From an uncultured Bacteroidales bacterium (GTDB lineage: Bacteria; Bacteroidota; Bacteroidia; Bacteroidales; Muribaculaceae): 64,000 bases of DNA. Position numbers and translations under genes: made by a program. Shown here one piece after another: positions 1,390 through 48,100 of the stretch. How positions within the stretch are numbered: position 1 is the first letter of the stretch; each line of letters opens with the position of its first letter. The notes below the pieces were generated by a model. The model was given only the letters and a program-made list of their open reading frames with translations. It was not told where the DNA came from and ran no database searches. The DNA is taken from contig CAMWLW010000003.1 of NCBI GenBank assembly GCA_947175245.1, positions 1-64,000 on the forward strand, in the 5' to 3' direction.

Positions 1390-3309
1390 TTATCGTGTGG
1401 GACGGACGGGGGCGATGGTGCCGTCGGGGTTGATTGTCATGGGGTCGATGCAGACTTCGCGGTGTGTGCCGGGCGAGTCGTTGAGGTAGTTTTCGTTGAT
1501 GCGGTGGTAGACGATGCGCCAGTCGTTGGTGGCGGGGGTCTTGACTACCGAGTTGTGGGCGGGGCCGTAGATGCCTTGGGCGGGATCCTGTGACAGTATG
1601 ACGGGGTTCTTGGCGACGGTGATGGGGCCGAGGGGTGACTCGGAGGTGCCGTAGGCGACGTGATAGTTGGGTGAGCCGGTGTCGTCGACTGACCATAGGA
1701 AGTAATACTTGCCGTCATGATAGAAGACGTAGGGTGCCTCGCGGTATTGCCATGTCTTGAGTGTGCCGCCCCGGGGGGTCATGACGGTGAGGGTGGAGTC
1801 GATGATTGATGTCATGTCGGGGGCGAGCTCGGCGCCGGCCATGTAGCCGTTGCCCCAGTAGAGGTAGCTCTTGCCGCTGAGGGGGTCGGTGAAGACGTCG
1901 ACGTCGATCTGCTGGCCGTGGCCTGTGGGTGAGTCGGTGATGATGGGGTGGCCGAGGTCGGTGAAGGGGCCTGTGGGTGAGTCGGCCACGGCGACGCCTA
2001 TCTGTTTGCCGCCGCCGGCGACGGGGTTGCCGCTGAAGTAGAGGAAGTATTTGTAGCGGCCGTCGATGACTTTCTCCTCGATGGCGGGGGCCCAGCAGTT
2101 GCCGTCGGCCCACTCGACCTGGTCGGTGGCGAGGTCGAGGACGATGCCCTCGGGGGTCCACTCGACCATGTCGGGCGATGAGAAGCAGGTGTAGTAGGTG
2201 CCGCTCCAGCCGGGCTGTCCGTCGGTGGTGGAGTAGATGTAGTAGCGGCCGTCGCGCTGTGAGTAGAGTACCTCGGGGTCGGCGTGGAAGCCGGGGAGCA
2301 CGGGGTTGGCGTCGACGTGGAGGCCGTCCATGTCGGCTGAGGGCCAGCGGCGCATTAGGCGCTGCATCTCGGCGCGTGTGATGGGCAGGACGGTGCCGTG
2401 GCGGGGGTGGAAGTTCATGGTGACGTCGTTGTCGATGACCGCGAAGTTGGCGAGGTCGGTGGTCTCGGTGAACTGGTATTTGCCTTTCATGTAGACGTCG
2501 TACATGAGGATGTATTTGTCGGTGCCGATGAGTTTGAATGTGCCGGCTCCCTCGACGCTCTCGGGGGTCTGCTGTTTGTAGTCGGGCTGTTCGGTCCACT
2601 GTCCGCTTGTGAGTGAGGGGGTGGTGGCTACTTTGATGCCGTTGCCGTTGCCCTCGGTCTTGTAGAAGAGGTGGTAGAGGCCGTCGTGGTAGACGATGTC
2701 GCCGTCGATACATGATGTGCCGTTGGCGGGGATGAAGAGGGGGCGGTAGTCGCCCTCGAGGTCGGTGAAGTCGTCGTTGGCGTAGGCGTAGTAGATGATG
2801 TCGGGGCCGCCTTCATATTGCATGGACCAGTATATCATGTATTTGCCGGCCTGCTCGTCGTAGATGGTCTGGGGTGCCCAGACGCGTTTGAGTTTTGACT
2901 GGTGGGGGTAGCGTTTCTGGATGTTGACGACTGAGTGATCCCAGTTGATGAGGTCGCGGCTCTTGAGCAGTACCATAGCGCGGTTTGAGTCCCAGCCGTT
3001 GCCTGATACCATGTCGGTAACGACCATATAGAATGTCTCGCCGTCGGCTCCGCGCAGGATGTGTGGGTCGCGTACGCCGCCGGTCGATGATATGACTTTG
3101 GAGTCGATGACGGGGCGGTTGTTGTTGAGTGCTTTGAAGTTATAGCCGTCGTTGGAGAGGGCGAAGCGTATCTGCTCGCCGTCGATGGAGTTGCCTGTGA
3201 AATAAGTGAATAGGTAGCCGGCGAGGTCTTTCTGCTCGGGTTGCGCGGCCTTGGCGGGGGCCATCGTTAGTAAAATTGATGCCGCGATGGTCGTGAGGAT
3301 ATGTTTCAT
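1390..3309 (-). CDS. Secreted glycoside hydrolase with two GH43 domains
   Basis: Predicted arabinan- or xylan-side-chain-cleaving enzyme of family GH43, exported to the periplasm or surface. I choose the ATG at 3307-3309 because it begins a clear signal peptide (MKHILTTIAASILLTMAPAKA); an in-frame start 57 bases upstream would bury it. Two five-bladed propeller domains are visible. The first has VRDP (base Asp), VWAPQ, IDGDIVYHDG (modulator Asp) and VEGAG (acid Glu). The second has HADPEV, CWAPAIEE, IDVDVFTDP and YREAPYVFYHDGKYYF. Both triads therefore look complete, whereas many tandem GH43 proteins have one decayed copy. No SusC/SusD pair lies next to it, so it is not in an obvious polysaccharide utilisation locus. 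Exact substrate is unknown. Confidence 0.9.
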   Translation of the reverse strand: MKHILTTIAASILLTMAPAKAAQPEQKDLAGYLFTYFTGNSIDGEQIRFALSNDGYNFKALNNNRPVIDSKVISSTGGVRDPHILRGADGETFYMVVTDMVSGNGWDSNRAMVLLKSRDLINWDHSVVNIQKRYPHQSKLKRVWAPQTIYDEQAGKYMIYWSMQYEGGPDIIYYAYANDDFTDLEGDYRPLFIPANGTSCIDGDIVYHDGLYHLFYKTEGNGNGIKVATTPSLTSGQWTEQPDYKQQTPESVEGAGTFKLIGTDKYILMYDVYMKGKYQFTETTDLANFAVIDNDVTMNFHPRHGTVLPITRAEMQRLMRRWPSADMDGLHVDANPVLPGFHADPEVLYSQRDGRYYIYSTTDGQPGWSGTYYTCFSSPDMVEWTPEGIVLDLATDQVEWADGNCWAPAIEEKVIDGRYKYFLYFSGNPVAGGGKQIGVAVADSPTGPFTDLGHPIITDSPTGHGQQIDVDVFTDPLSGKSYLYWGNGYMAGAELAPDMTSIIDSTLTVMTPRGGTLKTWQYREAPYVFYHDGKYYFLWSVDDTGSPNYHVAYGTSESPLGPITVAKNPVILSQDPAQGIYGPAHNSVVKTPATNDWRIVYHRINENYLNDSPGTHREVCIDPMTINPDGTIAPVRPTR

Positions 3310-5637: not shown

Positions 5638-6951
5638 ATGGAAAATGCAAAAGATATTCTTGACGCCGCCTGCAGGGCATGGTCGGGGTGGGCCTCGGTC
5701 AGGACACGGCGTGACAAGTACAAACGGTTTACGTATGGCGACCAGTGGAGCTACATGGTGAGTGACGGTGACCGTTACATGACGGCGGCCGAGCGTGCCG
5801 TGGCTCACGGCCGACGCCCGATGACCAACAATATGCTGAGGCGGCTTGTCAAGTCGGTCATAGGACGTTACCGCTACCGGCGTCAGGACGGCGAACAGCT
5901 CACGGGCGAGGCTGCCCGGGTGTACGCGTTCAACAATCTTGACGAGATTGACTGCCGGTCGCTCGAGGAGTTCCTGATATCGGGGTGTACGATCCAGAGG
6001 GTGATACGCGAGCGCCGGCTGATGGGTCACGAACTGTGGGTCGACATGGTGTGCCCCGACCGATTCTTTGTCAACCCTATACGTGACCCGCGGGGATGGG
6101 ATGCCGAGCTGGTGGGGATGCTTCATGACTGGAGCCTGACTGAGACGGTGATACGCCTCGCCGGCGATGACCCCGGGCGCGCTGCCGCCATAAGGCAGAT
6201 ATATGGCAGCATGTGCAGCAACCCTGTGTTGGGCGACTGGTGTGCGGGGTCAGACCATATTGACTCGTTCCTGTCGGCGCCGCCGGGCCGCTGCCGTGTA
6301 ATCGAGGTGTGGACGCTCGAGGCTGTAACCCGCAGGCGTCCCAGGCGCAAGACGGCCGGCGCCGGCGCCACGGCCTGTGACGTGTCGACCATGTGGCGCT
6401 GCCGGTGGCTCGCTCCCGACGGCACGGTGCTGGCCTCGCACGTGTCGCGGTCGCCCGACGGGATGCACCCGTTCAAGTTCCGTTTCTACCCTATGATCGA
6501 CGGTGAGGTTCACTCGCTGGTGGAGGATGTCATAGACCAGCAGATTTACATCAATGAGCTCATATCGCTCATTGACCACGTGGTGAGCTGCGCGGCCAAG
6601 GGTGTGCTGGTCTTTCCGGTCGAGGAGATGGCGCCGGGCATGACGCTCGAGAAGGTGACGGAGAAATGGAGCTCGCCCGATGCCGTCATTCCGATTAGAC
6701 GCGGCATCTCAAAGCCCGAGCAGATTACCGCGTCGGGCGGCTCTCTCGCGGCTAAGGAACTGCTGGAGATTCAGATGCAGATGTTTGAGGATGTGTCGGG
6801 CGTGACAAATGTGCTGATGGGGCGCACGGCGTCGGGCCGTATAGGCGTCGAGCAGTATGAGAGCCAGGTGCGCAACGCTCTCATTGCCATCGCCGACATT
6901 CTCGACACGTTCGGCAACTTCATCGCGGCGCGCAACAGTGCGCTGGTGTAA
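5638..6951 (+). CDS. Portal-like protein of the capsid cassette
   Basis: A 437-residue protein resembling phage portal proteins of the P22-like type. An early segment YKRFTYGDQW (residues 29-37, compare the conserved G-x-Q-W start of such portals) is followed by MTNNMLRRLVKSVIGRYRYR, then SLEEFLISGCTIQRV, a VWTLEAVTRRR wing region, DQQIYINELISLIDHVVSCAAKG (long stem helix) and SGVTNVLMGRTASGRIGVEQYESQVRNAL (crown-side helix with the typical loop). It is shorter than the P22 portal (over 700 residues) but long enough for the conserved core. It ends at a strong terminator. The portal call is moderately firm; whether it still assembles is unknown. It is the last gene of the four-gene cassette. 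Confidence 0.68.
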   Translation: MENAKDILDAACRAWSGWASVRTRRDKYKRFTYGDQWSYMVSDGDRYMTAAERAVAHGRRPMTNNMLRRLVKSVIGRYRYRRQDGEQLTGEAARVYAFNNLDEIDCRSLEEFLISGCTIQRVIRERRLMGHELWVDMVCPDRFFVNPIRDPRGWDAELVGMLHDWSLTETVIRLAGDDPGRAAAIRQIYGSMCSNPVLGDWCAGSDHIDSFLSAPPGRCRVIEVWTLEAVTRRRPRRKTAGAGATACDVSTMWRCRWLAPDGTVLASHVSRSPDGMHPFKFRFYPMIDGEVHSLVEDVIDQQIYINELISLIDHVVSCAAKGVLVFPVEEMAPGMTLEKVTEKWSSPDAVIPIRRGISKPEQITASGGSLAAKELLEIQMQMFEDVSGVTNVLMGRTASGRIGVEQYESQVRNALIAIADILDTFGNFIAARNSALV

Positions 6952-35896: not shown

Positions 35897-36842
35897 CCCG
35901 GAATTTCCACGCCGTCTGCGGCGGATTGGTGTGGACTGCCCGGAGGCAATCTATTGCCGGGGTAATCTTGACCTCCTGAGTCAGTATAACCGGGTTGCGA
36001 TTATCGGCGCGAGGGCTGCCGACGGGGAAGGCTGCGGGGCAGCCTATCGTCTCGGCCAAATATGGGCGCGCAATGGCTATGTCGTGGTCAGCGGATTGGC
36101 GTTGGGCTGCGACACGGCGGCCCACCGAGGCTGCCTTGACGAGGGTGGAAAGACAATCGCTATCGTGGCGAGCGGACTTGACATCTGCCACCCCAGGGAG
36201 AACAAAGCACTCGAACAGGAAATCATCGACAAAGGCGGACTGATAATCTCCGAACAACCTCTCGGAGTCAAAGCCAATCCCACGCGCCTCGTTGCCCGCA
36301 ATCGCCTACAGGCAGCCCTCTCCAATATCGTCATTCTTGCCCAGTCACCTGTCAAGGGCGGAAGCATGTACACCATCAATTTCGCCCGACGCTACGGAAA
36401 ACGAATCCAGGCCGTCCGTTTCGACCACGAGTCTGAAATCAACGGTGGCAATTTCCTCTTGCTCAACCAGGGCGTAGCCGCCGAGGCGCCATTAGTATTG
36501 GAACGTCTTGGCCCGACTGAGATGAGAAGTCGTGGGCTCGCACATGAAGCCTTCAACTCGGTCAAACATCAACTGTTGGCTGATATAGACCATATTCTCG
36601 CCACTCCCGAGCTGGCATCATCACCGATGCCGCCGTTCAACTCAGCCGCCACCCGTGAGCAAGTGCGTCTCGGCGCCTATCTCACATGGTGGCGAGACCA
36701 CGGCTCAGAACCGCGCCCCAAAAATCCAATCCTGTGGGGCGAATTTCTCTACTACTGTAATCGCACCTTTCCAACAATCACCACCCCGGCAAGTATTAGA
36801 GATATAATCGATCGATATTCTGATAAAAAGAATCCCCGATAA
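35871..36842 (+). CDS. DprA/Smf-like DNA-processing protein
   Basis: A 323-residue protein of the DprA/Smf family, which binds single-stranded DNA and loads RecA during transformation. Rossmann signature: VAIIGARAADGEGCGAA, then YVVVSGLALGCDTAAHRGCL and GKTIAIVASGLDICHPREN. Later RLVARNRLQAALSNIVILAQ and KGGSMYTINFARRYGKRI. The start is GTG at 35871, overlapping the esterase-fusion gene by 26 bases, so it is coupled to an accessory gene rather than in the usual housekeeping setting. The C-terminal region lacks the standard DML1 winged helix and instead ends WWRDHGSEPRPKNP and a helix. It is probably an accessory paralogue with a defence or mobile-element role; this is inference. Confidence 0.82.
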   Translation: MITTIHKTDPEFPRRLRRIGVDCPEAIYCRGNLDLLSQYNRVAIIGARAADGEGCGAAYRLGQIWARNGYVVVSGLALGCDTAAHRGCLDEGGKTIAIVASGLDICHPRENKALEQEIIDKGGLIISEQPLGVKANPTRLVARNRLQAALSNIVILAQSPVKGGSMYTINFARRYGKRIQAVRFDHESEINGGNFLLLNQGVAAEAPLVLERLGPTEMRSRGLAHEAFNSVKHQLLADIDHILATPELASSPMPPFNSAATREQVRLGAYLTWWRDHGSEPRPKNPILWGEFLYYCNRTFPTITTPASIRDIIDRYSDKKNPR

Positions 36843-36911: not shown

Positions 36912-37508
36912 TTATTCGCGGTAGGAGGGGCAGGTGTAGTCCTTCTGGAGAAATTCGCCGGGTGTGATCTTGCCGGTATATGCTCCGCGGCTTTTCAGCA
37001 GCTCAAAACATTCCTGTGCCGATTCGGGCTTTTTAACACGTCCGAAGGTAGCCCTTTTCTTCTCGTCCGAAATGGAAATCTCCCAGTCGACCCACTGTCC
37101 GATAGATATGGCATAGGCAATATAGTGCCCGTCAAACGGTACGAACATCATGTACAGTGCTTCTCTCAGGTATTCGGTTTCAGGGAAACGCCATACATAT
37201 ATTTTCTTGCCTTCATCCTCAAATATGCTTACCTCAATCTCCTCGTCCTTGAACGGCGACAGGAAGCCGATATCGATAGGCTCATAAGTGTTGAGCGGTT
37301 TTGGCCACCCGAAAATCTCCCCATCTTCTTCGGGAACGTTTTTAGCGATGACCGACAAATACTGGTGCTGAAAAAAGTATGGTGACACAACGTGCATGTC
37401 AGCGAGGTGGATAGCGGTGGTATCAAGTTCGATCACCTCCTGGCAATAAGCAGAGACGGCCGAAAGGGTGAGTGTCAGGCTCAGGAATAGTTTAAAAACA
37501 GGCTTCAT
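36912..37508 (-). CDS. Secreted protein of unknown function
   Basis: A 198-residue exported protein. ATG 37506-37508 starts a good signal peptide (MKPVFKLFLSLTLTLSAVSAYC); a longer in-frame start would place hydrophilic sequence in front of it. The mature part is acidic with many aromatic residues (VVSPYFFQHQYLSVIA, GWPKPLNTYEPIDIGFLSPF, YIAYAISIGQWVDWEI). No family recognised. A minus-strand TATTTTTG element at 37546-37553 is a likely -7 box, and its -33 region falls in the 26-bp repeat at 37557-37582. The defence-like module next door therefore appears to have inserted into this gene's promoter. Confidence 0.7.
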   Translation of the reverse strand: MKPVFKLFLSLTLTLSAVSAYCQEVIELDTTAIHLADMHVVSPYFFQHQYLSVIAKNVPEEDGEIFGWPKPLNTYEPIDIGFLSPFKDEEIEVSIFEDEGKKIYVWRFPETEYLREALYMMFVPFDGHYIAYAISIGQWVDWEISISDEKKRATFGRVKKPESAQECFELLKSRGAYTGKITPGEFLQKDYTCPSYRE

Positions 37509-37677: not shown

Positions 37678-38685
37678 TTAGTGTTGGGATTTGCCATTCC
37701 CTTTATTCTTGGCTTTTGTGCTTAGAGTCTTGATGGTGTCAAGATACGCTTGTTCAACAGGAGTTAGTTCACGAACTTGAAATTTGCGATACTCTTCACG
37801 CGCTTTATCCATTGCCTGCTGATGGCTGACAGAGCCTGGACCATTCAGCAAAGCCTCACCAGTTGAGGATAGTATCGTATCGAGTTGCCTGACATAATCT
37901 TCCATATACAAAGGACGACGACGCATTGCCTGAATCTCGGCAAAATCAAAGTAACCTGAAACAAGATTATTTAGAATCTTCAATTCATTCTCGCTAAGAT
38001 AATTCTTGGCAATCTGAGCATCTCGGAGCGTAGGATGATCTCCCTTGAATGATGTCAGACCCATCATCGGTGCATCGGCATCGGCACGCTTAAAAATCAC
38101 CTCAGCAGCAGTATTACCATGAGTAGCAAAATGAAGTTTGTTTTGTACAATCTTGAAGAACTCTATTGAAATCTCCGAACGAGGGTCATAGTCAACAGCT
38201 GTGGCATAAAGGTCGAGCACTTGGCGATACATTACTTTTTCAGATGAACGTATGTCGCGGATACGATCAAGCAACTCGCGCCAATAAGCACCACCGCCAT
38301 TACCCTTTAACCGCTCATCATCTATGGTGAATCCTTTGATGATATACTCCTTCAGTCGTTCAGTAGCCCACCGCCTGAAATGCGTAGCAATCAACGACCT
38401 GATGCGATATCCCAGCGAGATAATCATATCGAGATTATAATAAGTCACATTGTAGGATTTACCATCGGCGGCAGTTGTTCGGAATTTCCGAACAACTGAA
38501 TCCTCTTCAAGTTCACCATCTTCAAATATATGCTTAATGTGCTCGCTTACATTGGCTTTGCTTGTGTTGTACAGCTCGCACAGTTGCTGCTGGGACAGCC
38601 ATACAGTCTCGCCTGTAAACTTCACTTCGATATGGATCGCACCGTCCTCACTGTGATATATGATAATCTGATCGTTATCGTTCAT
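37678..38685 (-). CDS. rhuM: RhuM-family protein
   Basis: A 335-residue RhuM-family protein. N-terminal motifs are VWLSQQQLCELYNTSKANVS (HTH-like), VVRKFRTTAADGKSYNVTYY and NLDMIISLGYRIRSLIATHFR-RWA. The C-terminal half, which distinguishes RhuM proper, has RDIRSSEKVMYRQVLDLYATAVDYD and MMGLTSFKGDHPTLRDAQIAKNYLSENEL. RhuM was named from a Salmonella pathogenicity island and is widely found in islands; its biochemical role is not established. It is the third gene of the 26-bp-repeat module, 94 bases after the HARE/GIY-YIG gene. It shares the N-terminal plan of the RhuM protein at 18.6-19.5 kb but differs entirely at the C-terminus. Confidence 0.88.
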   Translation of the reverse strand: MNDNDQIIIYHSEDGAIHIEVKFTGETVWLSQQQLCELYNTSKANVSEHIKHIFEDGELEEDSVVRKFRTTAADGKSYNVTYYNLDMIISLGYRIRSLIATHFRRWATERLKEYIIKGFTIDDERLKGNGGGAYWRELLDRIRDIRSSEKVMYRQVLDLYATAVDYDPRSEISIEFFKIVQNKLHFATHGNTAAEVIFKRADADAPMMGLTSFKGDHPTLRDAQIAKNYLSENELKILNNLVSGYFDFAEIQAMRRRPLYMEDYVRQLDTILSSTGEALLNGPGSVSHQQAMDKAREEYRKFQVRELTPVEQAYLDTIKTLSTKAKNKGNGKSQH

Positions 38686-38779
38686 AATTAAATTATATAC
38701 TTAGTCAATTGGGCTTGTTAATGCGTCATATAATCAGGTCATTAATTACCTAAAAAGGGCGCTGCTATATGTTGCGAAA

Positions 38780-39568
38780 TTACAATTTCTTAAGATTTGA
38801 GAGTAGTTTATCTTTCAAAACGTCTTTATCTATTTCTTGATAATATTCGAATCCAAAATTGTCTCCTTGTCTCCTGTTTTGACGAGGCTCTAGTCCCTCT
38901 ATTAGAATTCCCTCCAAGACATTGGCAAGAGAATGTATATCAGAGGTGAAAACTTCAGATTGTTTAATTATTTTTCCACTATCTGAATGAATACTATCAA
39001 AGCCAAACCAAGAAAAACGATTCCACCGAGTCGCTAAACGATTCTTTGTATGTTCAGATAAACGTTTTATTATTGGACGATCAATAGCTTGCCCTACATA
39101 AATTACTTCTCTTCCATCGTAAAGCATATATATTCCCCTCATCTCACTTAAATCTATCGGAGATGCTCCGGTAGATTCAACCCCTAGAAGTTTTGGCGCA
39201 GAGTCCCAATTAATGGCATCCCTCATCCAAAACATACCATATGAAGGTACTAATTTAGAAATTGTACATGGCGTTTTATCTGAATTGGTGATCAATGCCG
39301 TTTTCTCTTTGGTTGAAGTAGTATTATGTGTCTTTGCTTGTTTCTGAGCATCCATTGTAAGTGTGTAAATACCTTCATCCACTCGTGTGAAAATTCCCAC
39401 TGAAGTTGTAAGAATTCTACTTACGGTATTGGCCGGGGTCTTACCATAACTATCTACTAGATTAGCCTCAATGATTTTATCAGTTATATCTCGATAATGC
39501 ATAGGTAGATAAGAATCACCCACTTTATTTTGGAGCAAAATTGTCCGTATAGCTTCTTTCCAAGTCAT
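38780..39568 (-). CDS. HARE-HTH / GIY-YIG nuclease fusion
   Basis: A 262-residue predicted nuclease starting at ATG 39566-39568 (MTWKEAIRTILLQNKVGDSY); the upstream in-frame extension is rich in isoleucine and unlikely. Residues 1-70 form a HARE-type winged helix ending DEGIYTL, known from domain analyses as a reader linked to restriction and DNA-modification systems. After a linker comes a GIY-YIG domain: RGIYMLYDGREVIYVGQ (GIY 145-147, YVG 157-159), Arg169, Glu219 in LEGILIEG, and PRQN. All catalytic residues are present. It is encoded between the AIPR-like gene and rhuM, with a palindrome and a TAACTTTG box just upstream. Likely a restriction-type effector; target unknown. Confidence 0.8.
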   Translation of the reverse strand: MTWKEAIRTILLQNKVGDSYLPMHYRDITDKIIEANLVDSYGKTPANTVSRILTTSVGIFTRVDEGIYTLTMDAQKQAKTHNTTSTKEKTALITNSDKTPCTISKLVPSYGMFWMRDAINWDSAPKLLGVESTGASPIDLSEMRGIYMLYDGREVIYVGQAIDRPIIKRLSEHTKNRLATRWNRFSWFGFDSIHSDSGKIIKQSEVFTSDIHSLANVLEGILIEGLEPRQNRRQGDNFGFEYYQEIDKDVLKDKLLSNLKKL

Positions 39569-39669
39569 ATGAAATATTCTTTTCGATGTAATTAATAATA
39601 TTATTATTGGCACTCTGTCACATTTTGCATCACAATATCAATCTTCAGAGTGTGTTCAATTATGAAATA

Positions 39670-39705
39670 CTTTGATCCCCTAAATGATTTAGGAGATCAA
39701 AGTTA
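39670..39705 (-). promoter_or_regulatory. 33-base palindrome overlapping a -7 element
   Basis: Two 16-base arms (39670-39685 and 39687-39702) pair with one mismatch around a single G. On the minus strand TAACTTTG (39698-39705) overlaps it, so it could be an operator at the promoter of the HARE/GIY-YIG gene. It lies just past the AIPR-like stop codon and could instead be a terminator stem, but no T tract follows. Confidence 0.6.
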
Positions 39706-39707
39706 AA

Positions 39708-41039
39708 TTATTTGCATCTTTTTAGATACGCTTCGTATGCTTCTTCCGCTTCAAGATACATTAACTGATTCTTACCGTTATGTTGGGGGTCTAGATCTTT
39801 TCTCAGCCAACCAAGATATTTGAGCAGTGGTATATCCTTGGGTATAAACTGGACTGATGTCGGGTCAACTTTCCATTTGAGGGTATCTGTCAGTTCATCG
39901 TATTTAATCAAGGCAACAATTCCTCCAATGAGGGGATAAATAAAGCCGTCTGGATAAATATAAGGAATGGTGGTATTAATAGTACGGAAAAGAGGGAGAC
40001 TGTGAGAATTCTCATCATTCTTTACACACGAGATTCTCCCGAAACTTCCCTGGTTCTTATTGTACATATCAGGGAATGAGACATAAAGAATGTCAAAATA
40101 CTTCATGATAGCTTCGGTCAGGTCCAAGGCTGATTTAAGTAGCGGGCTTGTTATGATATATTTGCCGTGTTCTTGCACAGAGAAATCTTCATTGGAGATG
40201 ACTTCGTTAAAAAAAGTAACGCACTGGGTTTTGGATGAATAGAGATTTACTCGATTGAATTTCTTTATTCCCTTTGGGAGAAAGCCGGCTTCTTGAAGGA
40301 AATAGAGTGGAATACATGCCATTGCAATCACGTCTTCTGACTTGATTTTTCCTTTCTCGCCTGTTTTCCAGATAATGTCATAGTTGCCAAGACGTTCTTT
40401 GAGATAGTCATAACAGCCAATCTGATTGCCTTTTGCAGTTTCACGAAGTTGGATGTTATTGTTACGCGCTGAGCAGATCTCAGCAATACTGGTGTAATAC
40501 TCTTCTTTAGCTTCTTCACAATCAGCCGGGAAAACGATCTCTACAGGAATACTGAATCGAAAGATGCTCTCATTTTCCCGTTCTTTGAACCGAGCGATGA
40601 TATCATCGTAATTCTCATTCCAAAAATCCTTACATTCTTTCCAGGTTTTGAATGTCTTACCAAAAAGTTTATCAATGATAAATCTAGCTATGGCAAAAGT
40701 GTTATGTCCTCCATCCATAATCCCTTCGTAAGCTGGATTGCTGAAAGTGACCCTAATACGATTACGCTCGAGTCGCTCGCAATTTTCGGTAGCAAGGAGT
40801 ATACCCTTAGTTTTAAACCAAAACAATTCAGGCGATGTGTCAAGAGTTTCGTAAATGGCCTTAGTAATAGGATTTGCAGTAGCCGTGCGTGGATTAATCT
40901 GATTGTCTGCGTCTTTTACCAGACGAATCAATGTTGCAGGTGAGATACTGGAGATTATCTTCCGTATTTTTACAGACTCTCGTGAAATTTGAGCTTCAGT
41001 GCTATGCTCAAGTTTTAAGATAATGGAGTTATTTCCCAT
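39708..41039 (-). CDS. AIPR/DGQHR-like protein, candidate phage-defence effector
   Basis: A 443-residue soluble protein resembling AIPR (abortive-infection phage-resistance) and DGQHR/DndB-like proteins. The diagnostic stretch is ELFWFKTKGILLATENCERL followed by FSNPAYEGIMDGGHNTFAIAR (compare F-W-x2-N-x-G and I-V-N-G-G-Q-T or D-G-Q-H-R). Further on come IPVEIVFPADCEEAKEEYYT and SIAEICSARNNNIQLRETAK, matching the family's Asn/Gln-rich helix that binds near this site. The rest is alpha/beta with no known motif. The assignment is by eye, hence moderate confidence. The gene begins 24 bases after a terminator that ends a short hairpin-rich RNA with its own consensus promoter. This organisation resembles type III toxin-antitoxin loci. 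It heads the repeat-bounded module. Confidence 0.65.
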   Translation of the reverse strand: MGNNSIILKLEHSTEAQISRESVKIRKIISSISPATLIRLVKDADNQINPRTATANPITKAIYETLDTSPELFWFKTKGILLATENCERLERNRIRVTFSNPAYEGIMDGGHNTFAIARFIIDKLFGKTFKTWKECKDFWNENYDDIIARFKERENESIFRFSIPVEIVFPADCEEAKEEYYTSIAEICSARNNNIQLRETAKGNQIGCYDYLKERLGNYDIIWKTGEKGKIKSEDVIAMACIPLYFLQEAGFLPKGIKKFNRVNLYSSKTQCVTFFNEVISNEDFSVQEHGKYIITSPLLKSALDLTEAIMKYFDILYVSFPDMYNKNQGSFGRISCVKNDENSHSLPLFRTINTTIPYIYPDGFIYPLIGGIVALIKYDELTDTLKWKVDPTSVQFIPKDIPLLKYLGWLRKDLDPQHNGKNQLMYLEAEEAYEAYLKRCK

Positions 41040-41061
41040 TTTTACAGTTATTAATAGGATA

Positions 41062-41089
41062 CAAAAAAAGCTGTTATTATATTACAGCC
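41062..41089 (-). terminator. Terminator between hairpin RNA and AIPR-like gene
   Basis: On the minus strand GCTGT and ACAGC (41070-41074 with 41084-41088) enclose an AT-rich loop and are followed by seven T. A 14-base inverted repeat (41050-41063 with 41112-41125) encloses this hairpin and could form an alternative fold, allowing regulated read-through. Confidence 0.75.
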
Positions 41090-41208
41090 TACTACAAAGA
41101 TAAAGAAAGAATGTATCCTATTAATTCTTACTCCAATCCTGGTGTAGAGACCGCGCGATTATCCAATCGCAAAACAAGTATCCACTTGTCTATCATTATC
41201 CAATGATG
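41063..41208 (-). ncRNA. Small RNA with five GGAU hairpins upstream of the AIPR-like gene
   Basis: Predicted 145-base transcript from the promoter at 41212-41243 to the terminator at 41062-41089. It holds five hairpins at 41192-41207, 41174-41189, 41155-41170, 41130-41145 (one mismatch) and 41107-41129. The first four have 6-bp stems of different sequence and the same four-base loop GGAU; the fifth has a 6-bp stem and GGAU inside a longer loop. Changing stems with a constant loop indicate selection on RNA structure. Function unknown; an RNA antitoxin, a protein-titrating RNA or a regulatory leader are all possible. Confidence 0.72.
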
Positions 41209-41211
41209 GTG

Positions 41212-41243
41212 CAAATTTAGAGGTAAAAATATAAACTCACAAA
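41212..41243 (-). promoter_or_regulatory. Consensus promoter of the hairpin RNA / AIPR operon
   Basis: Minus strand TTTG (41240-41243), 20 bases, TAAATTTG (41212-41219). The predicted start (about 41208) falls at the first base of the hairpin array. The AT-rich 41244-41341 beyond it shows nothing else. Confidence 0.8.
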
Positions 41244-41341
41244 TAATAAGTTATGTTCTACAGCATATAATTAGAATTTATAATATTTTTACGGCCTAAT
41301 GGACATTTTTACGGATCACAGTGACACAGGGAAAGAAAGAT

Positions 41342-43689: not shown

Positions 43690-45153
43690 TCAATATGATG
43701 GTTTGTCAGTGTTTGATAGACTCCATGCATTTAATTGGTTAACAATAAAACTTATATCTGATTTTTCTTTGGGAAAATCAAATCTAATTCCAACTGTGCC
43801 CTCCGGCAATATTAATAGTTTGAATTGCTGGTGTAAGGAATCTACTTCGTAAATAATAATGTTTTTTGAAATACTTTTGGATCTCTCTATTTCATTATTT
43901 AAATCAATAGCAGACCCCTTTCCAATCTCCCAGTTGTTATATTTACAAACTATGCTGGATGTTGTTAATCCGGCATCCCTGGCGACGGATATCTCATCAT
44001 CGGGATAGCACCAAGTAAATGTTGAGATATCTTTTAATATTTCTTCATTATATCCGAATAAATTTATTAAAGGTAACCCTTTATTCCGTAGCTTTCTATA
44101 TTTAATATTTAATAATATATCCTCTGAAAAGACTGGCTCCCATTCATTTTTGTCTCTGAGTTTGGAGTATAGAGTCATTGCTTGATCATGTTGATGAAGA
44201 GTACGTCCCCACTTGCTACCCTGCGAAAAGCCACAAAATGATCCTATACAAGCAGCTATAGATACCCCCGCATAGGCAAATTTACTCGTCTTAGAACCAC
44301 CTTTTAGAAATTTGAAATATTTTATATATCCAACGTTTCTCTTAAAAAGGATTGTTGCTCCCGATACGGAACAAGAATTGGTAAATATTTCGATGTTAGA
44401 TTCAGGAATTTTTCCATTGAAATTTTCAAGGTCAATGAATATCGAATCTTGGTCTAAGTCGTATTTTGCCTCTAATCCTCCAAATTCAAATATTGCAGTA
44501 TTACCATCAATACGAGTGTTTTCTATAAGAATATCTTTATCATCGGTTCCGGAAGAAAAATTGCCCCATAAAAAACCGATCCCAACAAATAGTGCGAAAG
44601 CCAGTGCTAAAACTGCAATTACGGCAACTATTCCTTTGATAAATCGTAATAACGTCGTAAATGTATTTGGTTTATCGGCTTTCTCAATGAAATCAGCTAA
44701 TTTATTGAATGTGGCATCAGATAAATCAAAGTCATATCGAATCGATTGTAGTTTTATCAAACGTTCAATCTCCTCACTTTTAAATTTTTTCTCAAGTTCT
44801 ATACGGATCGCGTTCGTATCTAAACTTTTGATTTCATCAAAAAGTACTGGAATTATTGTTACACCACAAACTAAAGCTGTTTGTATCTCTTCGAGGTACC
44901 AATCCTCACCTTCACTTTTGGGGATGAAGCAGTCGTTTGTAACTATCAAAATAAGAGAAGATGATTGCTCTACTGCTTTCTTGAGCTTTGTGTCAAAATA
45001 TTCAGGTCCAATATTATGTTTATCAAGGAAAATATCGCTTTCATTGAAACAATATTTTTCGACAAGAGTCGTCTTAACGAGTTCTGCGTATTCAGCACAA
45101 GTTTTACGATAACTAATAAATGCCTTATATCTGACACTTTTATTTGAACTCAT
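43690..45153 (-). CDS. Membrane-anchored TIR-domain protein
   Basis: A 487-residue protein with an N-terminal TIR domain (residues 8-150). YKAFISYRKTCAEYA is box 1, SSLILIVTNDCF the core strand, and EDWYLEEIQTAL contains Glu89 at the position of the catalytic Glu of SARM1-type NADases (W-x3-E). One strong membrane helix follows (about 174-197, GIVAVIAVLALAFALFVGIG), then roughly 290 residues predicted to lie outside the cytoplasm, with a weak second hydrophobic patch near 300. TIR proteins in bacteria deplete NAD or make signalling nucleotides during phage defence. It is the last gene of an operon with two secreted LRR proteins and a small secreted protein, which suggests that the outer part senses something at the envelope. 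Confidence 0.85.
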   Translation of the reverse strand: MSSNKSVRYKAFISYRKTCAEYAELVKTTLVEKYCFNESDIFLDKHNIGPEYFDTKLKKAVEQSSSLILIVTNDCFIPKSEGEDWYLEEIQTALVCGVTIIPVLFDEIKSLDTNAIRIELEKKFKSEEIERLIKLQSIRYDFDLSDATFNKLADFIEKADKPNTFTTLLRFIKGIVAVIAVLALAFALFVGIGFLWGNFSSGTDDKDILIENTRIDGNTAIFEFGGLEAKYDLDQDSIFIDLENFNGKIPESNIEIFTNSCSVSGATILFKRNVGYIKYFKFLKGGSKTSKFAYAGVSIAACIGSFCGFSQGSKWGRTLHQHDQAMTLYSKLRDKNEWEPVFSEDILLNIKYRKLRNKGLPLINLFGYNEEILKDISTFTWCYPDDEISVARDAGLTTSSIVCKYNNWEIGKGSAIDLNNEIERSKSISKNIIIYEVDSLHQQFKLLILPEGTVGIRFDFPKEKSDISFIVNQLNAWSLSNTDKPSY

Positions 45154-45694: not shown

Positions 45695-46705
45695 TCAAAA
45701 GATTATTTTAGAGCTATTTGAGCCCGAGCGGCGAATAAGGATCTGACCGGGGTCTGGCGATAGGATTCGGCGTCCATTAAGGTCATAGTACTCAATCGGT
45801 GCTTCGTGGATGTCCTGAAGAATGTTATCAATAGCGGCAAAGTCGTATTCTACTTTATTGGTGAAATATTTCCATGGTGTGGCACCATCCATAGCAGACT
45901 TTGATCCATTAGGTATGTAGAGTATAGCATTGGAATAGACGGAATCATCGAATGTATTTTTAGTTGCTGAAGCGGGGGAGTTTGTGGGATAGTATATCGA
46001 GGCTATTTTGGTACATTGATAGAACATCATCGAATCAGCAAACATAAGATCGGCCGGTAGATGAACGGTAGTTAAATTAACGCATCCTAAAAAACACGCA
46101 GTTCCCATGATAAATACATCATCGGGGATGTGTATCTCAGTTAGGCTCATACAAGCCATAAATGCATATTCAGAAATTGCCATGAGTGACTGCGGTAAGG
46201 TTACATGTTCAAAGCCGCATCCTGCGAATGTCCCCTCTTTTATTATATAGAGTCCATTCGGGATTACTATATCTCCCATTGACAGGCAGCTAAAAAATGC
46301 GTAGTCACCTATCGTGTTCATCTCATCGGGCAAATCTATCCTTAACATATTAGAACATCCATAGAATGCGTAATTGTCTATTATGTCAACCGATTGCGGA
46401 AGCCATATAGCCAGGAGGCTGGAATTGTTGCAAAAAGAATTCTGACCTATTTTAGTGAGGGTATATTCCTGTCCCGTTTCATCAATGACAATTTCCGGCA
46501 ATATAATGAAACCGGACACTGAATTACCCGGGACATGAACTTCTTTACTGCTATCTTCAGGATCAGTTTCTACAAAGCCCTCTTTGGTTTGCACTGTTTT
46601 TTCATTTTCGTCTAAGATAGAATATACAATTCCTTTGTAGGAAAAGTCTTTTGCACCGAGATACAAACAACTCAGCAACATTGTGATGACGATTTTTTTT
46701 CGCAT
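45695..46705 (-). CDS. Secreted BspA-like LRR protein with T9SS-type tail
   Basis: A 336-residue exported protein. The signal peptide MRKKIVITMLLSCLYLGAKD is followed by a short strand region and about seven BspA/LRR_5 repeats (SVDIIDNYAFYGCSNMLRID, then LPDEMNTIGDYAFFSCLSMG). The C-terminus (EYYDLNGRRILSPDPGQILI ending KIIF) matches Bacteroidales T9SS sorting tails, so it may be surface-anchored. BspA repeats bind host or bacterial proteins. It is the second gene of the TIR operon, 27 bases after the LRR lipoprotein gene. Confidence 0.84.
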   Translation of the reverse strand: MRKKIVITMLLSCLYLGAKDFSYKGIVYSILDENEKTVQTKEGFVETDPEDSSKEVHVPGNSVSGFIILPEIVIDETGQEYTLTKIGQNSFCNNSSLLAIWLPQSVDIIDNYAFYGCSNMLRIDLPDEMNTIGDYAFFSCLSMGDIVIPNGLYIIKEGTFAGCGFEHVTLPQSLMAISEYAFMACMSLTEIHIPDDVFIMGTACFLGCVNLTTVHLPADLMFADSMMFYQCTKIASIYYPTNSPASATKNTFDDSVYSNAILYIPNGSKSAMDGATPWKYFTNKVEYDFAAIDNILQDIHEAPIEYYDLNGRRILSPDPGQILIRRSGSNSSKIIF

Positions 46706-46732
46706 AATTATTAATTGATTAGTGGTTGATTA

Positions 46733-48100
46733 TTAGTAACCTGGTATATATTCGTGTTTGGTTATAACCCCGGTCCCGTGACATGTATGGCATGTCAATC
46801 GTACGGTACTTGTACGGTCTCCACCATGCCAGACCATTTTTTCATTATATCCTCGGCCCATACAGTTGCTACATCTTTCTTTACTGATTTCATAGTGGCC
46901 ACCATGTGCAGATGCCGGTGTAGTGCTATTTGGTGGATAATAATATATGCGATTAGATGGAGCCCCAGGATTGTAATTTCCAGAAGTATTGGCGTTGCTC
47001 TCTATATTGTTACCAGAATCATCATAAGGATATATGGCTATTTTATCAGCTATATTGAGTTCTGCCAATTCATCGCTAGATTTATAACTTGAGTAATACT
47101 CATGTGGAACATATATAGTCAAATTATCTATATATTTAAGATTCCAACTTACATCTACAAATTTTGGAATGGATTTACAACGGAGACTCACTCCTGTTAT
47201 ATTTTGCGCTGAACCAAAACTCTTAATTATCTTTACATTTTCTGGAATAGCAATGAAGTTAATATTAGTTCCAGCAAAAGCAGAATAATCAAGTATGCGT
47301 AGATTGTCCGGCAAATCGATATCATCAATATTACAGTCTGCAAATGCCAAAATGTCAATTTCTCTCAGAGAGGATGGTAACTCAATACTTTCAAGATTCT
47401 TACAATTATGGAATAGACCCGGAGGAATGCTTTTTACACCTTCGGGCAAGCTGATATATTTAAAATCGGTGTTGGCAAATGCTTCGCGCCCATACGATTT
47501 TACCATTGATGGAAATTCTATCGTTGAAAGTGAGCGACATCCACTAAATGCGTATTTTCCAATGTAGTCAAGTTCATCTTCGATTTCTACACCCCACAAA
47601 TTTTCACAGCCTGAAAATGCATGGTCACCAATTTTGGAAATTGGAGAAGGTAAACGCACATATCCCAAATTTGACAATCCATGAAAAGCGCCATTTCCAA
47701 TAGAAGAAAGCCCTTGTATATGTACATAATGAATTTGATCTTTAAATTTACTCCATGGAGTTATATACTCATCTTTATCAGCGTCATATTCAAAATCTAT
47801 CATTGGACCATCTCCATAGATCCAAAGCTTACCATCATTATCAAATTCATAGTAGAGTCGATCATTAATGACACCACGGAGAATTATTTCTGGTTCCGCG
47901 GCTTCTGCTACCTCCTCTACCTCCTCTACCTCCTCTGCGACCACCTCTTCTATCTCTATTTCTTCCGCAACTTCTACCACTGTGGAAACTTCTTTGGAAA
48001 TTTCTGGCTTAGCATAAGCACGTTGCTTACAGCTAAATAGTAGTGTGAAAAATGTGCCTGCAATGCATGTGATAGCCAATAGCAAAAACTTTTGTTTCAT
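46733..48100 (-). CDS. BspA-like LRR lipoprotein with DnaJ-type zinc motif
   Basis: A 455-residue lipoprotein. The leader ends LLFSC (lipobox Cys near 24) and is followed by a Glu/Val-rich spacer (VVEVAEEIEIEEVVAEE) that may form a stalk, then an eight-or-so-repeat LRR_5 domain (for example GLSSIGNGAFHGLSNLGYVR). The last 45 residues carry two C-x2-C-x-G-x-G motifs (CSNCMGRG and CHTCHGTG) as in the DnaJ cysteine-rich domain, unusual on a secreted LRR lipoprotein. It is the first gene of the operon that ends with the TIR protein; the structured RNA at 48150-48298 lies 50 bases upstream and could control it. Confidence 0.82.
   Translation of the reverse strand: MKQKFLLLAITCIAGTFFTLLFSCKQRAYAKPEISKEVSTVVEVAEEIEIEEVVAEEVEEVEEVAEAAEPEIILRGVINDRLYYEFDNDGKLWIYGDGPMIDFEYDADKDEYITPWSKFKDQIHYVHIQGLSSIGNGAFHGLSNLGYVRLPSPISKIGDHAFSGCENLWGVEIEDELDYIGKYAFSGCRSLSTIEFPSMVKSYGREAFANTDFKYISLPEGVKSIPPGLFHNCKNLESIELPSSLREIDILAFADCNIDDIDLPDNLRILDYSAFAGTNINFIAIPENVKIIKSFGSAQNITGVSLRCKSIPKFVDVSWNLKYIDNLTIYVPHEYYSSYKSSDELAELNIADKIAIYPYDDSGNNIESNANTSGNYNPGAPSNRIYYYPPNSTTPASAHGGHYEISKERCSNCMGRGYNEKMVWHGGDRTSTVRLTCHTCHGTGVITKHEYIPGY

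Follow-up and report, generated by a model that had tools for sequence, protein, structure and literature searches.

The window analyzed here comprises the first 64,000 nucleotides (nt) of contig CAMWLW010000003.1, from an uncultured bacterium of the family Muribaculaceae. On its minus strand, a gene at 39708 to 41039 encodes a 443-residue AIPR-like protein with a predicted ParB/Srx-like N-terminal fold, and just upstream lies an array of short hairpins that share the loop GGAU. As a first-pass annotation of this DNA had claimed, the array has a promoter of its own on that strand (41212 to 41243), with TTTG at 41243-41240 (-33) and, after a 20-nt gap, TAAATTTG at 41219-41212 (-7); these elements fit the Bacteroidetes -33/-7 pattern. 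Hairpin 1 (41192 to 41207; stem 41207-41202/41197-41192) and hairpin 3 (41155 to 41170; stem 41170-41165/41160-41155) are seen in sequence, fold and covariation alike, and between them lies hairpin 2 (41173 to 41190; stem 41189-41184/41179-41174), which adds a G-U pair to its six base pairs (bp). All three have perfect 6-bp stems with sequences unlike each other, and their loop is identical (GGAT in the DNA). The same annotation had counted four perfect GGAU hairpins, but hairpin 4 (41129 to 41146) is, by its sequence, interrupted: it reads UAC-a-CCA-GGAU-UGG-a-GUA, with 3+3 bp around an A-A mismatch. It is an alternative to the closing helix of the terminated RNA, and a related fold appears when the whole region is folded.

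Downstream of these hairpins, still on the minus strand, a long inverted repeat is perfect over 14 bp (41125-41112 with 41063-41050). Its 5' arm, beta (41112 to 41125), holds the fifth GGAT at 41118-41115, which the first-pass annotation had placed in a larger loop; its 3' arm, gamma (41050 to 41063), read from the sequence, comes after a terminator-like hairpin (41063 to 41090; stem 41090-41084/41074-41068). The seven T of this element (41069-41063) end 24 nt ahead of the ATG at 41039, exactly as first described. If the T tract terminates transcription, sequence and folding predict a short RNA of ~145 nt (41063 to 41208). In the fold of this terminated RNA, the 3' strand of a closing helix (41085 to 41096, paired with ~41155-41144) overlaps and competes with the 5' arm of the terminator; the position of this helix covaries in Bacteroidota (helix 3 below), though in the window itself the pairing is shifted at that place. 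The region is unusually stable (z-score -3.19, 0 of 200 shuffles equally stable), as is the terminated RNA (z -2.97, 1 of 200). A scan against Rfam 15 of the window region and eight homologous loci gave no match at the array.

The hairpins are conserved as RNA

A scan of 84,980 species found 118 relatives of the protein, of which 80, from Bacteroidota, Acidobacteriota, Verrucomicrobiota, Pseudomonadota, Actinomycetota and Bacillota, were fetched for locus analysis; the comparative set consists of 83 nonredundant homologous loci. Hairpins with a GGAY loop (Y, pyrimidine) precede the gene in 73 of them, with a stem of at least 5 bp in 67 and of 4 bp in 6. The expectation that homologous loci would carry the hairpins thus holds for most but not for all, since nine have none; in one more the region is cut by the contig end. 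Of 367 tetraloop hairpins within 400 nt upstream of the genes, 85 have the loop GGAT and 21 have GGAC, a preference that the background does not have, and across loci the loop context is Y-GGAY-R (R, purine).

In a pairing-blind test, all GGAY sites in the 260 nt upstream were checked for perfect 5-bp flanking complements. These flank 101 of 289 upstream sites (35%), against 15 of 937 in coding sequence and 26 of 3,189 elsewhere (~1%). The complementary loop RTCC had such flanks in 0 of 115 cases, so the hairpin signal is strand-specific. Moreover, stem positions 4 to 6 hold 54 G-U pairs and only 9 A-C mismatches, so selection acts on coding-strand RNA. Variable lengths of hairpin 2 and of the spacers made automatic consensus folds of entire upstream regions poor, and the hairpins were aligned in register instead. 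In this alignment, hairpin 3 of 15 loci (Bacteroidota and one Acidobacteriota relative) is paired at 95.6%, against 64.9% after shuffling, with a covariation of 0.844 against 0.223 (0 of 500 shuffles). In the alphaproteobacterial group (14 loci), hairpin 1 has a pairing of 100% against 90.4% and a covariation of 0.526 against 0.297 (0 of 500). A four-helix structure of 13 Bacteroidota RNAs is paired at 83.9% against 63.7%, with 17 double-change pairs against 10.3 and 48 extra pair types against 33.7; 0 of 500 shuffles reach any of five measures, and the structure lies far above all slid controls. Compensatory stem changes across relatives, which the first-pass annotation had predicted, are therefore abundant, and hairpin 2 carries one (A-U to G-C) even relative to a close relative with 94% protein identity (L006).

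Because the stems are palindromic as DNA, the array could in principle be a set of operator sites, or its hairpins could have arisen by chance. Both ideas are contradicted by stems whose sequences differ and yet stay paired, by the covariation, by the tolerance of G-U and not of A-C, and by the strand-specific loop; we consider their probability to be close to nil. The view that RNA structure is conserved here, and not DNA sequence, is borne out.

RNA and gene predict each other

Covariance models, a check that the first-pass annotation had named, locate the hairpins beside the gene in other phyla. The Bacteroidota model finds an Acidobacteriota locus outside its training set (L013, E 5.6e-7) and gives weaker matches in Bacillota and Actinomycetota, all immediately upstream of the gene. 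The alphaproteobacterial model recovers untrained loci at E values down to 6.5e-11 and matches a Bifidobacterium locus (L060) at 9.5e-5. Within carrier genomes, each model has at most one strong match, and it is located at the gene. In a blind scan of 248 genomes, the RNA model alone gave three strong matches. Two of these were already known; directly downstream of the third (L099, E 6.7e-14) lies an AIPR-like gene with 48% identity. From these blind-scan and cross-phylum matches it follows that RNA and gene predict each other. For a further match of the blind scan (L100, E 8.8e-5), the 3 kb of sequence contain no AIPR-like gene, and chance is the probable cause. The same probably applies to two weak matches of the alphaproteobacterial model on the minus strand of the window, at 36986-37046 (E 0.006) and 36599-36662 (E 0.84), which sit inside open reading frames (ORFs).

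The tandem display of GGA in hairpin loops had suggested an analogy to RNAs that titrate a CsrA/RsmA-like regulator. CsrA sites have the form A-N-GGA. The loop here is Y-GGAY-R, and the RNA is linked to the AIPR-like gene instead; furthermore, PF02599 has 0 matches in the window's genome (96.5% complete), whereas control genomes were positive. The absence of CsrA contradicts a sponge for this genome, and the analogy, which we now regard as very improbable, was abandoned.

Transcript anatomy across loci

In 31 of 53 non-Bacteroidota loci, a -10 element ends 5 to 10 nt before hairpin 1 (mode 6), and in 11 of 17 Bacteroidota loci the element TAnnTTTG ends 3 to 5 nt before it. Judged by this spacing, the transcript most likely starts with hairpin 1. 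Under a loose criterion, a terminator-like hairpin with a T run lies between array and gene in 25 of the 83 loci (5 in the reverse-complement control); it is consistent in Bacillota, in several Actinomycetota and in the window's clade. Thus the order of elements that had been likened to type III toxin-antitoxin loci holds in the window's clade, but since the terminator is not universal, the full layout is clade-specific.

A second recurrent feature is a long-range helix that pairs the middle of the RNA with a site ~15 to 40 nt before the start codon. In L034, GGTTCTGGAAATA pairs with TGTTTCCAGAACC, and the window counterpart is the 14-bp repeat; the helix is significant against shuffles (P ≤ 0.05) in 22 of 81 loci. 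In addition, of the 47 loci that have a Shine-Dalgarno sequence, 31 place it within a helix of 6 bp or more (mean 6.4 against 4.1 in shuffled sequences). These features would suit an autoregulatory leader: the GGAY hairpins on the mRNA would be bound by the encoded protein or a host factor, in cis only, and this would alter termination or expose or sequester the start region. In keeping with this, the RNA always lies in cis and on the same strand, mostly within ~200 nt of the start; neither the carrier-genome scans nor the blind scan gave convincing orphan copies; the closing helix of the window overlaps the terminator arm; and a leader fits the clades that have no terminator. On the other hand, an array of more than 100 nt with several hairpins, running from transcription start to terminator in Bacillota and the window's clade, exceeds what a simple leader needs. 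The corresponding switch is also weak: hairpin 2 and the long-range helix overlap in 16 of 29 loci where 10 were expected, so a general, mutually exclusive switch, attractive as it looked by eye, is not claimed. We hold the leader to be possible, and take it as the main, though tentative, alternative to the reading developed below.

The protein is a remote AIPR relative

The gene product had been called AIPR-like. Its constant link to the RNA and its kinship to AIPR stand, but as a formal member it falls short, since its Pfam AIPR (PF10592) score of 20.4 bits is under the gathering cutoff of 25. Because AIPR matches with E ≤ 0.01 were obtained for 36 of 56 homologues (best 2.7e-8), and because the best viral-model fold match of the protein is an AIPR protein (E 4.2e-6), we describe it as a remote AIPR relative. 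An AlphaFold2 model built from 55 homologues is confident, with a predicted local distance difference test (pLDDT) score of 93.8 and a predicted template modeling score of 0.88. With the whole protein as query, Foldseek found nothing significant in the PDB. In structure comparison, the N-terminal part of the predicted model weakly resembles ParB-N, SspE, BrxU and the DndB complex. The best match, to ParB-N, is weak (Z 5.1 over 102 residues, root mean square deviation 3.5), SspE follows with Z 4.9 over 140 residues, and the top matches, all with Z below 8, come nearly all from one superfamily (ParB/sulfiredoxin-like). The conserved motifs NPR, KG, EGI-DGGH and ARNxN resemble the DGQHR-type motif of this superfamily.

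The likeness to the AIPR/DndB/DUF262 group (GmrSD, BrxU, SspE) consists of the predicted N-terminal ParB/sulfiredoxin-like fold and the D-G-G-H motif. Unlike these proteins, the window protein stands alone with its RNA, outside any restriction or phosphorothioation operon, and neither Pfam searches of homologues nor structure comparison recognized a nuclease domain. Since ParB-fold proteins bind CTP, ATP or GTP (PMC12704722), nucleotide binding is a reasonable guess here. The ParB-fold protein DndB has been described as an operon repressor (PMC12704722), a precedent that suits the autoregulatory leader.

A candidate RNA-controlled effector

Clustering of 523 neighboring ORFs revealed no family in more than 5 of the 83 loci. 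With no conserved neighbor gene and no Rfam match, RNA plus protein make up the unit. A repeated loop on variable stems suits recognition by a protein, and the unit's own gene product would be the obvious ligand. With the RNA as the only conserved partner, and with one loop repeated on several interchangeable stems, the array looks like a multivalent protein-binding RNA. Two kinds of known system have the same layout, which favors RNA-mediated restraint. In type III toxin-antitoxin systems (ToxIN, CptIN, TenpIN, AbiQ), promoter, repeated RNA, terminator and protein gene follow each other as in some clades here, and the distribution is likewise mobile. Their toxins, however, are ToxN-family endoribonucleases and not 443-residue proteins with a predicted ParB-like fold, and the present hairpins have only the loop in common instead of being sequence-identical tandem repeats. 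The AbiF-RCd22 system has its own promoter, a short RNA of repeated stem-loops, a terminator, a same-strand gene and phage-borne copies, and its RNA binds and neutralizes the protein in trans (PMC12373285). It shares with our locus the element order, the repeated stem-loops and copies on viral contigs, but AbiF (Abi_2), which is connected with the origin of Cas13, is unrelated to the AIPR/ParB-like window protein, and what our hairpins have in common is a GGAY tetraloop, in an array that Rfam does not match. Searches of the protein and its homologues found no ToxN-type match (Pfam, PADLOC, PDB sequences) and no Abi_2 match (Pfam), and PADLOC gave no match for the window protein. Lacking the toxin family of the one and the protein of the other, the locus falls outside both groups, but it may well work like them.

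We therefore favor, with a probability of roughly 0.45, a two-component RNA-protein module, possibly for defense, in which the RNA would bind and restrain the AIPR-like effector. In the mechanism that we infer, from direct binding and inhibition to trigger and toxicity, the promoter would begin the RNA at the first hairpin, and the RNA would display the same GGAY tetraloop several times, on interchangeable stems, as putative binding sites for the protein encoded just downstream on the same strand. Binding would keep the protein inactive, a state maintained by an excess of RNA over mRNA that the terminator would set in the window's clade and in Bacillota. When transcription or the RNA is disturbed, for example by phage infection, the protein would be released and act, perhaps via its ParB-type nucleotide-binding fold.

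Several observations weigh against restraint of the protein by the RNA. The nine loci without a GGAY hairpin, among them the sole Verrucomicrobiota locus, indicate that the protein is apparently able to live without the RNA. Most Bacteroidota and alphaproteobacterial loci have no terminator between RNA and gene, and in such clades the RNA may be just a 5' leader; placement of the Shine-Dalgarno sequence within a hairpin also fits cis-regulation. Pfam and structure searches recognized no toxic domain in the protein or its homologues, and the C-terminal half, although folded alone with a pLDDT of 96.1, has no clear relative among solved folds. The deep one-to-one association with no third gene, and a conserved architecture with variable stem sequences and long-range pairings, might be read as an active ribonucleoprotein, with the RNA as a required cofactor, sensor or guide instead of an inhibitor. 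No variable guide-like stretch was noticed, and with no nuclease domain recognized either, we think this unlikely.

Taken more broadly, it is about an even bet that these loci represent effectors of a new, widespread class under RNA control, in which a dedicated RNA with GGAY tetraloops directly switches the activity of a ParB-fold AIPR-like protein, or else an RNA-using effector with no known counterpart. If the RNA does control the protein, control by antitoxin RNA would have emerged once more, this time with a nucleotide-binding fold whose best-known members serve chromosome partition (ParB) and restriction (SspE, GmrSD); this would be a further unrelated fold under such control besides ToxN and AbiF, and the poorly characterized AIPR-like proteins would gain an RNA ligand with a four-base recognition motif. 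Were the RNA merely a leader, it would still be a cis-regulatory RNA that is new and conserved very broadly. Our literature search, which covered neither subscription papers nor supplementary tables, found no paper linking an RNA to AIPR-like proteins; an unnamed earlier prediction is possible in the supplementary tables of a human-microbiome survey of structured RNAs (PMC8040213), which lay outside that search. VIPR (PMC13142463), with GGY/NN repeat RNAs, was considered and set aside, because it has an ancestral RAMP protein and its description does not mention hairpins.

Distribution, mobility and neighboring genes

The RNA family is new to Rfam 15, yet the pair occurs in at least five phyla (Bacteroidota, Acidobacteriota, Pseudomonadota, Actinomycetota and Bacillota), on plasmids and in viral contigs. 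Close to home the gene is rare, being present in 1 of 297 genomes of the window's family and 3 of 393 of its order. With an alignment as query, homologues were found in seven viral contigs; a viral scan with the window protein alone gave no matches. Five homologues are plasmid-borne. The tree of the 83 proteins shows a wide spread with cross-phylum placements, such as an Acidobacteriota row within Bacteroidota and a Frankia row beside a Parvibaculum row. In viral contigs L086-L088, the AIPR-like gene (48% identity) has no GGAY array and branches among Bacteroidota that have it, so the array may have been lost on these virus-classified contigs. In another locus (L021, ~2980-3001), no in-frame start codon precedes the AIPR-like frame, and an upstream A run suggests a frameshift or an assembly error.

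Window positions 38777-41267, which include the RNA, the AIPR-like gene and the next gene, have 81% DNA identity with a Bacteroides metagenome-assembled genome (L006). From 41441 on, the flank is 86% identical to L102, a genome of the same genus as the window, and past that point L102 carries different sequence. The shared block and the differing flank suggest that RNA and gene were probably gained together, the next gene probably forming part of the same block. By eye, the next gene has a HARE-HTH N terminus and a GIY-YIG-like stretch. Some of the 83 loci lie near integrases, restriction enzymes or other defense-linked genes; this is suggestive, as a tally of neighbors made without a control set.

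Other genes of the window include a RhuM-family protein (37678-38685; PADLOC candidate family PDC-S05, E 3.3e-162) and a TIR-domain protein (43690-45153) with a hydrophobic stretch seen by eye and a weak PADLOC match to SAVED_TIR, possibly a second defense gene nearby. In locus L003, a subthreshold match to the RNA STnc490 (6139-6245, E 5.7e-6) lies directly before an IS200/IS605-like tnpA frame. Finally, positions 45695-48100 of the window encode two tandem BspA-type leucine-rich repeat proteins, the larger of which has a weak DnaJ zinc-finger match at its C terminus.
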